Part shown: positions 41,101 through 47,961 of the stretch, piece after piece
How positions within the stretch are numbered: position 1 is the first letter of the stretch
Layout of the letters: each line of letters starts with the position of its first letter
From: Bdellovibrionales bacterium
Lineage (GTDB): Bacteria > Bdellovibrionota > Bdellovibrionia > Bdellovibrionales > JAGQZY01
NCBI GenBank assembly: GCA_020435205.1
Contig: JAGQZY010000005.1
Location: forward strand, 1 to 59,373
Direction of reading: 5' to 3'
DNA length: 59,373 nt
Made by a program: the position numbers and the translations under genes
The notes under the pieces: model-generated
The model's input: only the letters and a program-made list of their open reading frames with translations
Database searches by the model: none
What the model was told of the DNA's origin: nothing

Positions 41101-44100
41101 CTAGTGAGATTTTTTGCGAATGACTCTGAAGATTTGGGGTTCTGACCACGCCTTAGGATAGCCGTCCTGTTTTCCACGCAAGCGAATATAGTAAATGCCG
41201 GAATCTAAGTTTTGACTAATCACTGTTTTGGTTTTTCCAGACACGGATTTAGTAAGAACTGGATTGGTCATAGCCGGTGAACGTGAGATCTCAATATCAT
41301 AGGTGTCGGCTTTTGAAGAGTATTCCCACTCAAGAACAAAAAAGGCATCGGCCTTATCCATTAAGATAAAGGTTTTTCGTTTTTCGGGACGAACAATCTT
41401 GGGGAAATATTTTCCTTCTGCTGTTGAAAGGTCGCCACTTTCTCTGGCAACACTAGCCAAGTGGATTTCCTTGTCTGGATCACCATGATTGAACCAAAAA
41501 TCTTCCTTAGAGTAGGGACTCAGAGGCTCTTTTGTGAGCGGATCGATGGCGCGAACCTTCCAGGAAAGATAACCCGTTTGATTGGGGATTGTTGTTTTGG
41601 TGTCATTGATAAACAAATTTTGCCTATTTTTATCACTTTTAAAATAGGTGTACTTAACCTGAAAGGAATCAACACCGGGGAGGGGATTCCAGTTTAACAA
41701 GTATTCTTTGTTCTCCTGATTGGTTCCGCTTGCTGTAGGGGCTGGGAACCACGATACGATGGTGCCCGTGGCTGGAGGGGAAAAGTCATCAGTTTTGTAA
41801 ATAGGCTGAACTTTAAAATAAGTTTTGCCAATAGGAACAAAGTCAGGGATCAACACTTTTTTTGTGGTCTCTTCCTCATGGTAAATTTCCTTGAAGTCAG
41901 GGTCACGAGAAAAAGACACTCTGTATTTGTCAGCTTTGCTGCCACCTTGCCATTTGATGGTTAGCTTCGTCTTTCGGTGTTTGGTGGGCATAGTTTTATC
42001 AGCAAGAACTTTTGGGTAGTCGCTTTCCACCATCCAATACATAATTTTATTTTTTTCCAATTTCACAGTTGGTAAATCTTTTGGCCAAAGAATTTTGAGA
42101 TCAAACTTCTGTGGAGACGTCCAGCTGGAAACCTGTTTTTCCTCAGTGTGGCGGCCGCGAACTCTCCAGTAATAAACACCATCTTCGAGAATCTCGACTT
42201 GGTAAGTCGTATCTTTAGTAAAGTCTTTGAGGAGAGACTCTTTGAAGTCAGAGGATTTTGAAACCTCAATATCGTATTCAGTCCAAACCTTATATTGATC
42301 AGACCATACAAAGTCCTGAAGTGGGGTTTCTCCGCGAGGAACAGGATAACGTAAACGGCTTTCATTTTCTGGACTTACAGGCAAAGGCGGCACATTAATT
42401 TTTGCCGTGAAAGTCGAGGTTTCAGAAGGGGTTTCACTCGCTCCATCTCTTCCAATGACACGCCAAAACACTTGTCCAACCATAGGAAGTTTCAATTCAA
42501 CTTCATTCTTTTGTTTAATGCGACGACGAATAGGGGATTTGAAACTCTTATCGCGGCTGAGTTCTAAAATGTATTCATCAAAAGCAACATCAGCCTTCCA
42601 ACGGAACTTGGTGTTCATTGAAGTGACATACCACATTGCTTCGTAATCATGAGGAGCCACCAGACTAATCACTCCGCCGTCACCTTTATTTTCTAGCGGA
42701 TCTTTGCGGGGATCAAATTCACCGGGGCGTAAGGTGCCTTGAGCCATGGCTCTTTGCGCAAGAGTGGCAAGGACGTCTTCGCTGAGGCCTCCCTCTTTCA
42801 AGGCTTCCAGAGCCTTTTTATCAAGGGCTCCTAAACGAATGGCATTAATGGCTTTGTCGTCAAGTCCTTGAGCTTTCAATTTATTGAGAGTTTCTTTATC
42901 GAGAGTTCCGTCAATCAATTTTGTTAAGGTCTCTTCGTCAAAAGCTCCTGACTTGAATAGGGCCAAAACTGCGGGACTCAGTAAGCTCTGTTGCAATCGC
43001 GCTAAAAGGTTTTCACTGATACCAGCAACACGTAAAGCTTCAATAGCCTCACTGTTGAGAGAGCCACTTTCGATCATAGCTTGATCCATTTTATCAAAAC
43101 CTTGTTTTTCAAGGGCTTGACTGGATTTCTTATCCAACTCACCGTAGCGCAATGCAGACACATTTTTTTCGTTTAAAACACCCTTACCAATGGCTCCTAA
43201 ACCCTGTTTGCTCAAGGCGCCTTTGCGGAAAGGAACAAGGGTTTTTTCAGAAATTCCAGCCTGACGAAAGGCTGAAATCGCTGTCTCGTTAAGAAACCCA
43301 CCGGCGATGACGGCGCGATCGAGTTCGTCGACACCCTCTTTGTTTAACTGGTTTTTGTCTTTTTTAGCTAAACTATTATCCATAATGTGACTGAGAGTCT
43401 TCTCTTTAACAGCCCCTTTGCGAATAGCGGCAATGGCTTTTTTGCTGAGAGCTCCGCCGCGCAAGCCCACCAAGGCTCGATCAGAGATTCCTCCTTCGCG
43501 AAGAGCGTCGATGGCCTCTTGGTTAAGAATGCCTTTTTCAATAACCAATTGGTCTGAGCGGGAAAGACCTTGCACAGCCAACTGATTGCGAGTGTTCTCA
43601 TCCATAGTTCCATAGCGCAAAGCAATTAGGTTTTGGTCATCAAGCACCCCATTACTAAGTGCTTTGAGGCCTGGAGGGCTGATAGTGCCTCTTTTAAAAC
43701 TAGCAAGAACGTAATCACTGATGCCACCCGCTTTGAGGGCAGCCAAGGTTTCTTGATCAAGAGCTCCGTGTTTTAACACTAAAAGGGCTTGGTCATCGAG
43801 GCCCCTCTTTTTAAGTTCAGCTAACTTTTCCTCGCTGATTGTACCATTGCGGAGTGCGGCTAGAGTTTCATCATCAAGAGCACCACTTTTTAATGCAGCC
43901 AAAGCTTCTGGACTCATTTGTGTTTGTTGCAACTGTGCCAAAGTAGTTTCTGAGAAGCCGGCAGCTTTCAGTGCAGCTAAGGTATCTTTGTCGAGAGCGC
44001 CATAGGCAAGAAGATCAAGTGTCTCGTTGGAAAAGCCCTTTTTGCGAAGAGCGGATAGCTCCTCAGCGGAGAGGTCGCCCCGGCGAAGTTTGAGGAGAGT

Positions 44101-44778
44101 CTCCTCATCAATCTTACCCTCTTTTAAGGATTGTAAAGTCAAGGAGTCAAATAAAGACGGGCGAAGTGATTTTACCAAAACTGGCTTTTTTTCCTTCGCT
44201 TTTTCTTTTTCTAAGGGATTGTTTGTGCTGGCTAAGGTTTCTACTTTCTTACCATTGACCTCTGCGACTCCCTTAAGAACCGCAATTGGCGGTAAGGGGT
44301 TTGCTGTTTCAACTTTAAATTTCCCGCCTTTTGTTGAAATATCCTCAGTTTGCCCATTGCGAATCACTTTGAAAGTCGATTCTTTTTCAACATTAGCTAA
44401 GAAACTACCATGTTGTAAGTTAAGTTGAAGAGTTCCATTTTTTCTAGAAAGAATAATCATGGAGTCAGGATCAAGATTGATTTCACCACCATCGTCAAGT
44501 GCAATAGTCACTGTAGAACTGGAGCCTGTAAAGATCCAGTCATTCTCAAAAACATCGCTGTTAGCATCAGCGCGATGCCAAACCAAACTTTGATCAAATT
44601 TTCGTTTCACTTGATTCTGTAGTTTTGCAAAATGACCAATTTTTATGGAGCCGGCACCAGCTGAATCGCCCCATATGATGTCATAGAAGAGCCATCCACT
44701 TGACATCACCGCCAAGCAGAGACAGGCCATCACAATGATGGAGTCTGATTTTTCTAAACGACTTTTCGCAAATAGCAT
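41101..44778 (-). CDS. giant membrane-anchored FecR-domain protein with 36 thirteen-residue repeats and FN3-like modules
   Basis: The 1225-residue protein has one membrane anchor (about 14-32), a FecR-type domain (about 70-175: 'NDWIFTGSSSTVTIALDDGGEINLDPDSMIIL', 'GTLQLNLQHGSFLANV', 'VLKGVAEVNG'), then exactly 36 uninterrupted 13-residue repeats (residues 212-679) and about five FN3-like sandwich modules (about 700-1220), each with a 'YWRVRG'-type strand. Anchor and modules place most of it in the periplasm. FecR domains relay signals or bind in the envelope. It is divergent from a PP2C / RsbW-like / STAS cassette. The start is the first ATG, with a GAGGAAA-type site before it. No catalytic motif seen; a sensor or scaffold is likely. 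Confidence 0.85.
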   Translation of the reverse strand: MLFAKSRLEKSDSIIVMACLCLAVMSSGWLFYDIIWGDSAGAGSIKIGHFAKLQNQVKRKFDQSLVWHRADANSDVFENDWIFTGSSSTVTIALDDGGEINLDPDSMIILSRKNGTLQLNLQHGSFLANVEKESTFKVIRNGQTEDISTKGGKFKVETANPLPPIAVLKGVAEVNGKKVETLASTNNPLEKEKAKEKKPVLVKSLRPSLFDSLTLQSLKEGKIDEETLLKLRRGDLSAEELSALRKKGFSNETLDLLAYGALDKDTLAALKAAGFSETTLAQLQQTQMSPEALAALKSGALDDETLAALRNGTISEEKLAELKKRGLDDQALLVLKHGALDQETLAALKAGGISDYVLASFKRGTISPPGLKALSNGVLDDQNLIALRYGTMDENTRNQLAVQGLSRSDQLVIEKGILNQEAIDALREGGISDRALVGLRGGALSKKAIAAIRKGAVKEKTLSHIMDNSLAKKDKNQLNKEGVDELDRAVIAGGFLNETAISAFRQAGISEKTLVPFRKGALSKQGLGAIGKGVLNEKNVSALRYGELDKKSSQALEKQGFDKMDQAMIESGSLNSEAIEALRVAGISENLLARLQQSLLSPAVLALFKSGAFDEETLTKLIDGTLDKETLNKLKAQGLDDKAINAIRLGALDKKALEALKEGGLSEDVLATLAQRAMAQGTLRPGEFDPRKDPLENKGDGGVISLVAPHDYEAMWYVTSMNTKFRWKADVAFDEYILELSRDKSFKSPIRRRIKQKNEVELKLPMVGQVFWRVIGRDGASETPSETSTFTAKINVPPLPVSPENESRLRYPVPRGETPLQDFVWSDQYKVWTEYDIEVSKSSDFKESLLKDFTKDTTYQVEILEDGVYYWRVRGRHTEEKQVSSWTSPQKFDLKILWPKDLPTVKLEKNKIMYWMVESDYPKVLADKTMPTKHRKTKLTIKWQGGSKADKYRVSFSRDPDFKEIYHEEETTKKVLIPDFVPIGKTYFKVQPIYKTDDFSPPATGTIVSWFPAPTASGTNQENKEYLLNWNPLPGVDSFQVKYTYFKSDKNRQNLFINDTKTTIPNQTGYLSWKVRAIDPLTKEPLSPYSKEDFWFNHGDPDKEIHLASVARESGDLSTAEGKYFPKIVRPEKRKTFILMDKADAFFVLEWEYSSKADTYDIEISRSPAMTNPVLTKSVSGKTKTVISQNLDSGIYYIRLRGKQDGYPKAWSEPQIFRVIRKKSH
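42742..44145 (-). repeat. 36 in-frame 39-bp (13-residue) repeats with six-repeat higher-order period
   Basis: The repeats lie within the FecR-domain gene and encode residues 212-679 without gap or insertion. Consensus: x-E-T-L-x-A-L-[KR]-x-G-x-[LI]-[DS]. Leu/Ile at positions 4, 7 and 12, Gly at 10 and Asp/Ser/Asn at 13 are most conserved. Copies six apart resemble each other best (15, 21, 27; also 17, 23, 29), giving a 78-residue (234-bp) cycle. At the DNA level the copies are well diverged, so the array is old. Confidence 0.9.
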
Positions 44779-44908: not shown

Positions 44909-46726
44909 ATGGAAATACCAAAAAAATCGTTGTCGATTAAAAATAAAATTTTAATTGTCCTGGCATCCTTGCCTGTGCTGTCCATATCTTTGATTGTGGC
45001 TACGGCAACAACGGTTTTTAAAGAAGACAAATTGGCCTATGTTTTTGATACGGCCTTGTCTTCAACTCGAGCTAAGGCCAATACTTTAGATTCGCAAATT
45101 TCCGGCTTTACCCAATCTTTAAAAGCTTTGCAGGCGAACTATGACCCAGACCTTAAGCGCCTAAGTTTTGCTGGAAAAAAGTATTTTGATGCTGAACCTA
45201 ATATTAAAGCTTTTTATAATTTTCAATGGGATGGGAAGAGGTTCCTCACTCATTATAAAAAAGCAGGTGATGGAGTTGATCTCGATGATTCCGAATTAGA
45301 AGAGATGGATGACCTACTCAAGGAAGCTTGGTATGAGGGTTTTTCAGTTGGAGTCTCCAAACAGCGTCCTATGCATATGTATATTGCGGCCCGCATCGGT
45401 GAAGATGGGGGTGGTGAAATTGCGGCTATTATGGTTGAGACTTCACAATCTTTTTCACTTTTTGGAAAAGGACCTCGTGGAGAAAACTACTTATACCATC
45501 CTTTGCGTGGGCGACTCGCTGGTGGCGATAGCCAATTGGGGTTGGATCAATTCTTGGCTAATCAGGTTTTCAATCAAAAGTCTCGAGATGCCACTAAGGA
45601 AGTGGAGCTAGGGAAGGAAAAATATTTAGCATCTTATTCTCGCCTTGAGGCGGGAAAGCTATTTGTGGTTTCGACGATAAATAAGGACAGAGCTCTCGTG
45701 GCCGTTCGTAAACTTATGGCCAGGTCTTTTGCTTTTGGGCTCTTTATACTCAGTGTGGTCGGTATTATTGGTGTCTTTGCTTCTAATGGTTTGACCAGCG
45801 CGTTGCGAGGACTTGCTGAGGCCACTTCTAAAGTTATGGATGGAGATTTTACTGTTCGTGTGGAAACAAAAAATGATGACGAAATTGGCTCTCTAGCTAT
45901 GAGTTTTAATAAAATGACAGAAGAAGTTTCAAGACTCATGGAAAAGACTGCGCAGAATGCACGTATGGAGGCCGAACTAAAAACAGCACAAACCGTACAA
46001 GAAACTCTGTTTCCGCCGAGTTCAGCACAAATCGGACCTGTGCAAATCTATGGTAAGATGGAGCCTGCTTCTGAGTGCGGTGGCGATTGGTGGTATTATT
46101 GTCAAATCGACAAAAAAGTGTGGGTTTGGATTGGTGATGCCACTGGCCATGGTGTGCCGGCAGCTCTTTTAACCAGTGCGGCGCGCGCGGTGGCGTCCGT
46201 TATCGAAAAAATCCCAGATATGACTCCAAGTCGAGCCCTAGAGGTTATGAATCGAGCTATTTATTCGACCTCAAAAGGGGAGATGATGATGACTTTCTTT
46301 TTGGGTTGTATCGATCTGGATAAGAACACTTTTACTTATGCTAATGCCTCCCACGATCCACCTTTTTATCTGAACAATGAAATTACAGGAAAGCCAAAAA
46401 GAAAAGATTATTTTCCTCTCATGGAAATCAATAACCCTCGCCTTGGTGAATCGGATGGGACTCAATATAAAGAATATTCCATGCCAATTGCTATGGGTGA
46501 CAAGATTATCTTCTATACGGATGGAATTATGGATGTCAAAGATCCCAAAGGAGATATTTGGGGTGAGCGTCGCTTTTTAAAGTCTCTATCAAGAATTAAT
46601 GAAACAAACATTGAGTCTACAGTAGTGGATGTGTTTGATGACTTGAACAACTTTAGACAAGATATTCCTTTAGATGATGATGTGACTCTCATTGTTGTAG
46701 AGTTGGAGAAGGGTAAAGCAGCTTAA
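44909..46726 (+). CDS. membrane sensor with HAMP and PP2C (SpoIIE/RsbU) phosphatase domain
   Basis: The 605-residue protein has TM1 (about 12-34), an extracytoplasmic sensor region (about 35-268), TM2 (about 272-292), a HAMP linker ('LAEATSKVMDGDFTVRVETKNDDEIGSLAMSFNKM', about 300-338), a short coiled coil and a PP2C phosphatase domain ('ECGGDWWYYCQ', 'WIGDATGHGVPAALL', 'IIFYTDGIMD', 'PLDDDVTLIVVE') with the acidic metal ligands. In RsbU-type systems the phosphatase dephosphorylates a STAS antagonist. The two genes that follow, with no gap and a one-base overlap, encode the ATPase and STAS partners. Confidence 0.93.
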   Translation: MEIPKKSLSIKNKILIVLASLPVLSISLIVATATTVFKEDKLAYVFDTALSSTRAKANTLDSQISGFTQSLKALQANYDPDLKRLSFAGKKYFDAEPNIKAFYNFQWDGKRFLTHYKKAGDGVDLDDSELEEMDDLLKEAWYEGFSVGVSKQRPMHMYIAARIGEDGGGEIAAIMVETSQSFSLFGKGPRGENYLYHPLRGRLAGGDSQLGLDQFLANQVFNQKSRDATKEVELGKEKYLASYSRLEAGKLFVVSTINKDRALVAVRKLMARSFAFGLFILSVVGIIGVFASNGLTSALRGLAEATSKVMDGDFTVRVETKNDDEIGSLAMSFNKMTEEVSRLMEKTAQNARMEAELKTAQTVQETLFPPSSAQIGPVQIYGKMEPASECGGDWWYYCQIDKKVWVWIGDATGHGVPAALLTSAARAVASVIEKIPDMTPSRALEVMNRAIYSTSKGEMMMTFFLGCIDLDKNTFTYANASHDPPFYLNNEITGKPKRKDYFPLMEINNPRLGESDGTQYKEYSMPIAMGDKIIFYTDGIMDVKDPKGDIWGERRFLKSLSRINETNIESTVVDVFDDLNNFRQDIPLDDDVTLIVVELEKGKAA

Positions 46727-47461
46727 ATGGGCAAGGTCATATACCTAAAAGATTTTCTGAAAAACCAACACGGCACCTTAGAGGGCAAGGTGGTTGTGGG
46801 TTCTGACGTGCGCCCGGCACAAGCCGTAAATTTGGCAATCACCAATCGATCTTTACAAGTCGTCACTGATGGTTTTGACGAAAGTTTGGCCTTAAAAATT
46901 TCTGAAAATCCTGATGATTTTGTGCGCGACCCTGGTGAGTATTTATTAGGACAAGATAGTAACGGAATTGGTAGTTTTCAACAAAAGTTTTTTCGACAAT
47001 CCAAAAAGGATGACTTTCTTTTTCAAATTGAAACCTATTTAAAAAGTGGGCAGCATCGTCGCGTACGTGATGATATATATCTCATCGCCGACGAGCTATT
47101 TACAAATTTCGCTAAGTCGTCAGCTGAAGACTCTAAAACTATGGTTTTTGGAATTGAAAACGATAAAGATACAGTCATGATTTATTGTCGAGATCAGCAA
47201 GGAGCTTTGGATCCTCACATCATGCTGCAAAGCATTCAGCGCTGCTATCAGCAAGGTGTGAAGGCGTCGATTCGTATGGATAGCAAAGGAGGCGCCGGCA
47301 TTGGTAGTTTTCTTATGTATAGTGTATCGACGGGGATGGCTATTATTGTTGAGCCAGGAAAGCATTCTATGGTGTTGCTATGGATGCCTCGTAAGGCGCA
47401 TCACGAGGATCGGGTGGATATGAATAAGAATCTTTTTGTGATTTCAGGTAAGGGGGAGTAA
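46727..47461 (+). CDS. RsbW/SpoIIAB-like GHKL ATPase (anti-sigma/serine kinase type)
   Basis: The 244-residue cytosolic protein starts right after the phosphatase stop. Its C-terminal half is a GHKL ATPase: N-box 'ADELFTNFAKSS' (N127), 'YCRDQQGALDP' for the G1 box and 'KGGAGIGSFLMYS' for the G2 box. Residues 1-100 form an extra domain not usual in RsbW, of unknown fold. Such proteins phosphorylate a STAS antagonist and hold a target (sigma factor or other) until released. It overlaps the STAS gene by one base. No sigma-factor gene is adjacent. Confidence 0.85.
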   Translation: MGKVIYLKDFLKNQHGTLEGKVVVGSDVRPAQAVNLAITNRSLQVVTDGFDESLALKISENPDDFVRDPGEYLLGQDSNGIGSFQQKFFRQSKKDDFLFQIETYLKSGQHRRVRDDIYLIADELFTNFAKSSAEDSKTMVFGIENDKDTVMIYCRDQQGALDPHIMLQSIQRCYQQGVKASIRMDSKGGAGIGSFLMYSVSTGMAIIVEPGKHSMVLLWMPRKAHHEDRVDMNKNLFVISGKGE

Positions 47462-47961
47462 TGTCGTTCACGATTAAAAAGGAAGAGAAAGATGGTAAGC
47501 CATTCTTGATCTTTTCTGGAGCTATCGACGAAGAAGCTGATTTCCCACAGTTTGGACCCTTGGGGCCTGAAGTGATCGTTGACCTTAAAGAGGTGCAGTC
47601 GATCAATTCAGTGGGAATTCGATCATGGCTCATTTGGTTTACCGACCAGAAAGAGACCCTGTTCATCTTTGAAGGTTGCCCTAAAGCTGTTGTTATGCAA
47701 ATGAACATGGTGGAAGGGTTTTTGCCGGAGAAGTCAAAAGTGCATTCTATGGTTATGCCATTTTATTGCGAAAAGTGTGATAAAGAAATCGATCGTCTTT
47801 TTGAAGTGGGTAAACAAATCTTAATTCAGGGTGAGGATGTCGAAGTCAAATTTGATGCTTCTCAAATTTGCGAGCCTGGCTGTGAGCCAGAGCTTGATAT
47901 TAACAAAGCCAAATATTTACGTTTTTTAGTTCGTTTAGAACAACAAAACCAAGCCGCCTAA
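47461..47961 (+). CDS. STAS-domain antagonist-like protein with cysteine-rich tail
   Basis: The 166-residue protein has an N-terminal STAS fold ('FLIFSGAIDEEADFPQF', 'EVIVDLKEVQSINSVGIRSWLIWF', about 14-60) with Ser47 and Ser50 at the usual phosphorylation site. The C-terminal part holds C103-x-x-C106 and C137-x-x-x-C141, which could bind zinc. STAS antagonists are phosphorylated by an RsbW-type kinase and dephosphorylated by the PP2C protein; both partner genes lie just upstream. The cysteine-rich tail is unusual for this family and could add a protein or metal contact. Confidence 0.85.
   Translation: MSFTIKKEEKDGKPFLIFSGAIDEEADFPQFGPLGPEVIVDLKEVQSINSVGIRSWLIWFTDQKETLFIFEGCPKAVVMQMNMVEGFLPEKSKVHSMVMPFYCEKCDKEIDRLFEVGKQILIQGEDVEVKFDASQICEPGCEPELDINKAKYLRFLVRLEQQNQAA

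Follow-up and report, generated by a model that had tools for sequence, protein, structure and literature searches.

In the 59,373 nucleotide stretch of Bdellovibrionales DNA analysed here (the window), a minus-strand ORF of 1225 aa (41101–44778) contains a long tandem array of 13-residue repeats, which raises the question of what fold such an array adopts, how it arose and what it contributes to the protein that carries it. On the basis of the ORF, its Pfam FecR match and its orthologues, we describe the product as a FecR/FN3-like envelope protein, of which all features are given on the minus strand. At the N-terminus lies a hydrophobic segment (residues 13–31; 44686–44742; Kyte–Doolittle peak of 2.12) that is probably a signal anchor or transmembrane helix, followed by a FecR domain (residues 82–172; 44263–44535; PF04773, E = 1.1e-7, 32.7 bits against a cut-off of 24); together these confirm the FecR-domain membrane protein proposed in a previous, sequence-only reading of the locus. 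The C-terminal region (residues ~700–1222; 41113–42681) was delimited by tblastn to relatives, in which residues 704–1222 aligned, and appears to consist of FN3/Ig-like modules, the FN3 name being our own reading. No Pfam match was obtained for this region at an E-value of 0.01, and within it residues 936–1058 match PHROG 31, tail fibre J.

The array itself occupies residues 212–679 (42742–44145), and these divide into 36 blocks of 13 residues with no insertion or deletion, just as the sequence-only reading had it. Positions 7 and 12 of the repeat are hydrophobic (LIVMF) in every copy and position 4 in 30 of 36, compared with a best column of 20 among 2000 composition shuffles, whilst Ser, Asp or Asn fills position 13 in 33 copies. 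This part of the previously described pattern therefore stands; the Gly ascribed to position 10, however, was overstated, as it is found there in 23 of the 36 repeats and at position 11 in 12, with one or both positions occupied in 32. It is the third and fifth repeat classes of each six that carry Gly at position 11 instead of 10, a shift that had escaped the sequence-only reading. Additionally, the array is bordered by two degenerate, cap-like blocks: residues 199–211 (PVLVKSLRPSLFD; 44146–44184) on the N-terminal side, a repeat 0 whose translation keeps V4, L7, F12 and D13 in register, and residues 680–692 (QGTLRPGEFDPRK) on the C-terminal side.

Autocorrelation along the array was high at every tested multiple of 13, with the maximum at a lag of 78 (z = 22) and the next highest value at 156. 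In agreement with this, repeats six apart share on average 5.17 of 13 residues, compared with ~3.0–3.5 at lags of one to five repeats, and identity is also raised at lags of 12, 18 and 24. The lag-6 value was reached by none of 5000 permutations of repeat order, and the maximum over lags 1–12 was 4.52 among 1000 such permutations. The six resulting units of 78 aa (unit 1, 43912–44145; unit 2, 43678–43911; unit 3, 43444–43677; unit 4, 43210–43443; unit 5, 42976–43209; unit 6, 42742–42975) can be aligned without gaps at pairwise protein identities of 24–47 %, which together with the lag-78 peak substantiates the six-unit organization suggested earlier. The accompanying idea that 36 = 6 × 6 reflects a closed or defined superhelix is unsupported, as duplication of a 78-aa block explains the super-period. 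As such, the array would have been built in two steps, with a 13-mer amplified first and a block of six amplified thereafter (13 to 78 to 468 residues). In the unit alignment, units 3–5 share a variant in which the buried position 4 of classes 3 and 4 (repeats 15–16, 21–22 and 27–28) is polar, being R/K/S and then Q/R/Q; the pairs concerned lie at 43054–43131 (unit 5), 43288–43365 (unit 4, which has a net charge of +6) and 43522–43599 (unit 3). These repeats may represent repeated binding or flexible sites, and the confidence of the structural models described below is also low around repeats 18–24.

When the whole array was submitted to AlphaFold2 (AF2) as a single sequence, a helix was predicted approximately every 13 residues in most repeats, with a mean pLDDT of 57 overall and ~70 in repeats 1–10; in repeats 18–24 confidence was low and helices were merged or missing. 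A 12-repeat model, for which the alignment consisted of three 156-aa double units taken entirely from the array itself, returned 12 helices for 12 repeats (mean pLDDT 82, pTM 0.64). The predicted helices are 7–9 residues in length, span approximately positions 1–9 and stop before the Gly, which fits the capping pattern read from the sequence, in which position 13 serves as N-cap and the Gly turn as C-cap. For artificial perfect repeats, AF2 can assign high confidence to solenoids that are unrealistic, as demonstrated on beta-solenoids (PMC11795689). As a prediction of secondary structure, one short helix per 13-residue repeat is nonetheless well supported, and the modelled array has the tandem helical repeats in constant register that characterize an alpha-solenoid. 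Each unit would then comprise a Ser/Asp N-cap at position 13, a helix at ~1–9 and a Gly-hydrophobic turn at 10–12, with positions 4, 7 and 12 building the common core. A Foldseek search with the 12-repeat model against the PDB and viral models returned nothing at an E-value below 0.001 (TM-scores of ~0.2), and no match was found with the low-confidence full-array model.

A profile built from the 78-aa unit and searched against 369 genomes of the phylum detected this locus only, the array being absent from the 368 others, including the congener. With a 156-aa profile and a relaxed threshold, the same phylum yielded additional weak matches (E of 7e-4 to 0.05); those viewed were single low-scoring stretches with no 13-residue array and were taken as chance. 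No relative was found in GTDB scans using the native protein or the array consensus, nor in a scan of viral contigs with the consensus, all of which require an exact short peptide match at the outset and would thus miss diverged arrays. By tblastn, the native protein matched nothing in phages or plasmids and the consensus matched nothing in phages. For plasmids, none of the consensus matches opened was judged to be related (H3, H7 and the Streptomyces match H8 stand outside this set): a Lysinibacillus match was a Gly-rich low-complexity 13-mer stretch, a Mammaliicoccus match was a short acidic repeat, two enterobacterial matches adjoin ToxN genes and are presumably ToxI RNA repeats, and a Shinella match was an ALTTAQ repeat protein.

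Profile scans with Pfam, NCBIfam and PHROGs securely placed only the FecR domain, in line with the earlier statement that no named family fits the repeat; TPR, HEAT, ARM, PPR, ankyrin and other named repeats gave no match at an E-value of ≤ 10 in Pfam and NCBIfam. In classical alpha-solenoids, each repeat comprises two or three helices and ~30 residues or more. The PPR, for example, has 31–36 residues (PMC11514114). The array resembles TPR, HEAT, ARM, PPR, Sel1 and TALE repeats in being a tandem of helical units whose predicted stacking gives an elongated domain, but differs in having one predicted helix per 13 residues and in matching none of them in Pfam or Foldseek. We considered it improbable, at the lowest level of any explanation weighed here, that the array is a diverged member of a known family, for which the candidates were ALTTAQ (PF20080), the helical oligomerisation domain of the CPSase large chain (CPSase_L_D3, PF02787) and designed helical repeats (DHRs). 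The isolated array does score above the Pfam cut-offs for CPSase_L_D3 (35.8 bits) and LPD26 (29.8 bits), and the local helix-Gly-hydrophobic-Ser-helix turn of the former fits the repeat junction. The best stretches, however, cover just 29 of 80 profile positions (51–79) for CPSase_L_D3, far from a whole-domain match, and 22 of 62 for LPD26, in each case equivalent to one helix-turn-helix, and there is no carbamoyl-phosphate synthetase context. That the isolated array (42742–44145) passes both cut-offs could mislead automatic annotation.

The ALTTAQ repeat is the nearest natural analogue that we found, as it is likewise bacterial, very short and free of gaps, with a Ser/Thr that resembles an N-cap, and its hydrophobic spacing, read from sequence, equals that of the helix part of our repeat (5 then 3). 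The array consensus weakly matches (E = 9e-3) the Shinella protein mentioned above. Against membership in this family, the ALTTAQ unit in this example keeps a register of 8 residues rather than 13 and has no Gly turn, and ALTTAQ_rpt matched neither the array at an E-value of ≤ 1 nor any other part of the contig. The Shinella protein is a giant one encoded on a Shinella zoogloeoides plasmid (NZ_CP132312.1); a single PDB entry resembles it strongly in sequence, namely 9zem, whose 120-residue chain bears the name HeliScrew4. DHRs (5cwb, 8cwy) share with the array a helix-turn-helix rich in Leu, Ala, Lys and Glu and match it weakly; they are artificial, though, the spacing of the matches is ~50 residues and the PDB scores are sums of domains of ~5 bits each, so that the similarity looks compositional. 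On profile evidence, the array is best filed as an alpha-solenoid repeat variant not assigned to any named family; with repeat and predicted fold matching nothing searched, it seems to be a protein spacer or binding scaffold of a new type.

Both ends of the host protein are much more widely distributed. Relatives across the order possess the FecR and FN3-like portions without the array, and the FN3/Ig-like modules are conserved in these orthologues. The congener orthologue has 652 aa, lies in the same gene order and likewise lacks the repeats, whilst in one relative (L034) the FecR match ends at residue 376 and the FN3-like match starts at 406, leaving a linker of ~30 residues. Judged by these alignments, the array is an insertion relative to the orthologues, situated between the FecR domain and the FN3-like modules, and its absence from the congener implies that it is dispensable for the core function. 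The sequence-only reading had no means of detecting this insertion or the conserved gene pairing described below.

This restricted distribution might suggest a recent tandem expansion or an assembly artefact, but both are ruled out by divergence among the 78-aa units, which are 38–56 % identical in DNA. At amino acids common to two units the same codon is used at a frequency of 0.349, compared with 0.335 expected on the basis of codon usage within the array; codon identity is thus at chance and synonymous sites are saturated, which makes the array old. Synonymous sites are likewise saturated, or nearly so, in the genes compared between this genome and the congener, such that the array may have originated either before or after the congener split. 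Nearly neutral expansion, in which a linker 13-mer was amplified and the resulting soluble helical spacer, though of no particular use, was tolerated, would agree with the presence of the array in one species and its absence from the congener. We nevertheless regard it as distinctly unlikely, because the 36 repeats have kept an exact register with no indel or stop despite saturated synonymous sites, and because core positions 7 and 12 are invariably hydrophobic. That the register has outlasted synonymous saturation argues instead for selection or constraint on the protein.

The genomic context of the host gene offers some indication of the pathway involved. Divergently oriented to it, on the plus strand, is a gene for a HAMP and SpoIIE/PP2C (RsbU-type) phosphatase with an N-terminal sensor region (44909–46726; PF07228, E = 4.8e-37; PF00672, E = 1.9e-11), followed by an RsbW-like HATPase protein (46727–47461; PF02518, E = 0.0025, below the cut-off, the assignment also drawing on conserved order) and an RsbV-type protein (47461–47961) that has no Pfam match and is STAS-like by reading and conserved order. 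The SpoIIE/PP2C homologue divergently adjoins the FecR gene in all 17 relatives whose flanks are intact (L004 and L007–L022), and the three-gene order PP2C, RsbW-like, STAS-like is kept in several families. The host protein resembles other FecR-domain envelope proteins in its above-cut-off PF04773 match, its N-terminal anchor and its orthologues across the order. Its setting seems to differ from the classic FecI/FecR pair, in which a cognate ECF sigma factor is encoded alongside, in that its gene neighbours an RsbU-PP2C partner switch, and the array is found only in this species in the sample; the adjacent genes encode a symporter, a nucleoside phosphorylase-like protein and the PP2C, HATPase and STAS-like proteins, with no FecI-like protein recognized in translations of ORFs that were in part profile-searched. 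The FecR/FN3-like and RsbU-type PP2C genes thus probably specify an envelope-sensing partner switch, the functional link being suggested by their neighbourhood. In our literature search we found no paper describing a FecR–RsbU-type pair, and its conservation suggests a pathway in this order that leads from the envelope to a partner switch.

Taking these observations together, the explanation we favour, and hold with about equal confidence and doubt, is that the array is a lineage-specific, one-helix-per-repeat alpha-solenoid that serves an envelope-sensing protein as a spacer or scaffold in the periplasm. From its place in the linker that joins the FecR domain, anchored in the membrane, to the FN3-like modules, it would lengthen the reach or set the spacing of the distal periplasmic modules and offer its repeat surfaces as a binding scaffold, whilst the envelope protein would report to the divergently encoded RsbU-PP2C/RsbW/RsbV partner switch; the compartment is suggested by topology and the phosphatase link by gene neighbourhood, the helices being predicted. 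A less probable, though still credible, alternative is that the array serves above all to bind a ligand or partner, be it peptidoglycan, a client protein or another subunit in self-assembly, with length being secondary. Alpha-solenoids often serve as binding scaffolds (PMC11514114), class-specific residues persist past synonymous saturation, and the polar replacements shared by units 3–5 would provide three repeated putative sites. No homologue or known binding surface accompanies these features, however, and duplication history alone could give class-specific similarity.

Returning to the spacer interpretation, we tentatively propose, at somewhat less than even confidence, that the array is a natural 13-residue, one-helix-per-repeat solenoid with no solved representative, in which equivalent helices surround a common core and two-level duplication in one lineage has produced a periplasmic rod. 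If the fold is as predicted, its repeats would be among the shortest of any helical solenoid in nature and would carry a clear two-level duplication record; they would also provide a simple rule for making rods to a desired length, as well as an example of a new domain arising within a conserved signalling protein. Elsewhere in the same genome, a second protein, in which no 13-residue array was seen, also carries a FecR domain, with a score of 60 bits (L001, G000:C90:17170-17484).
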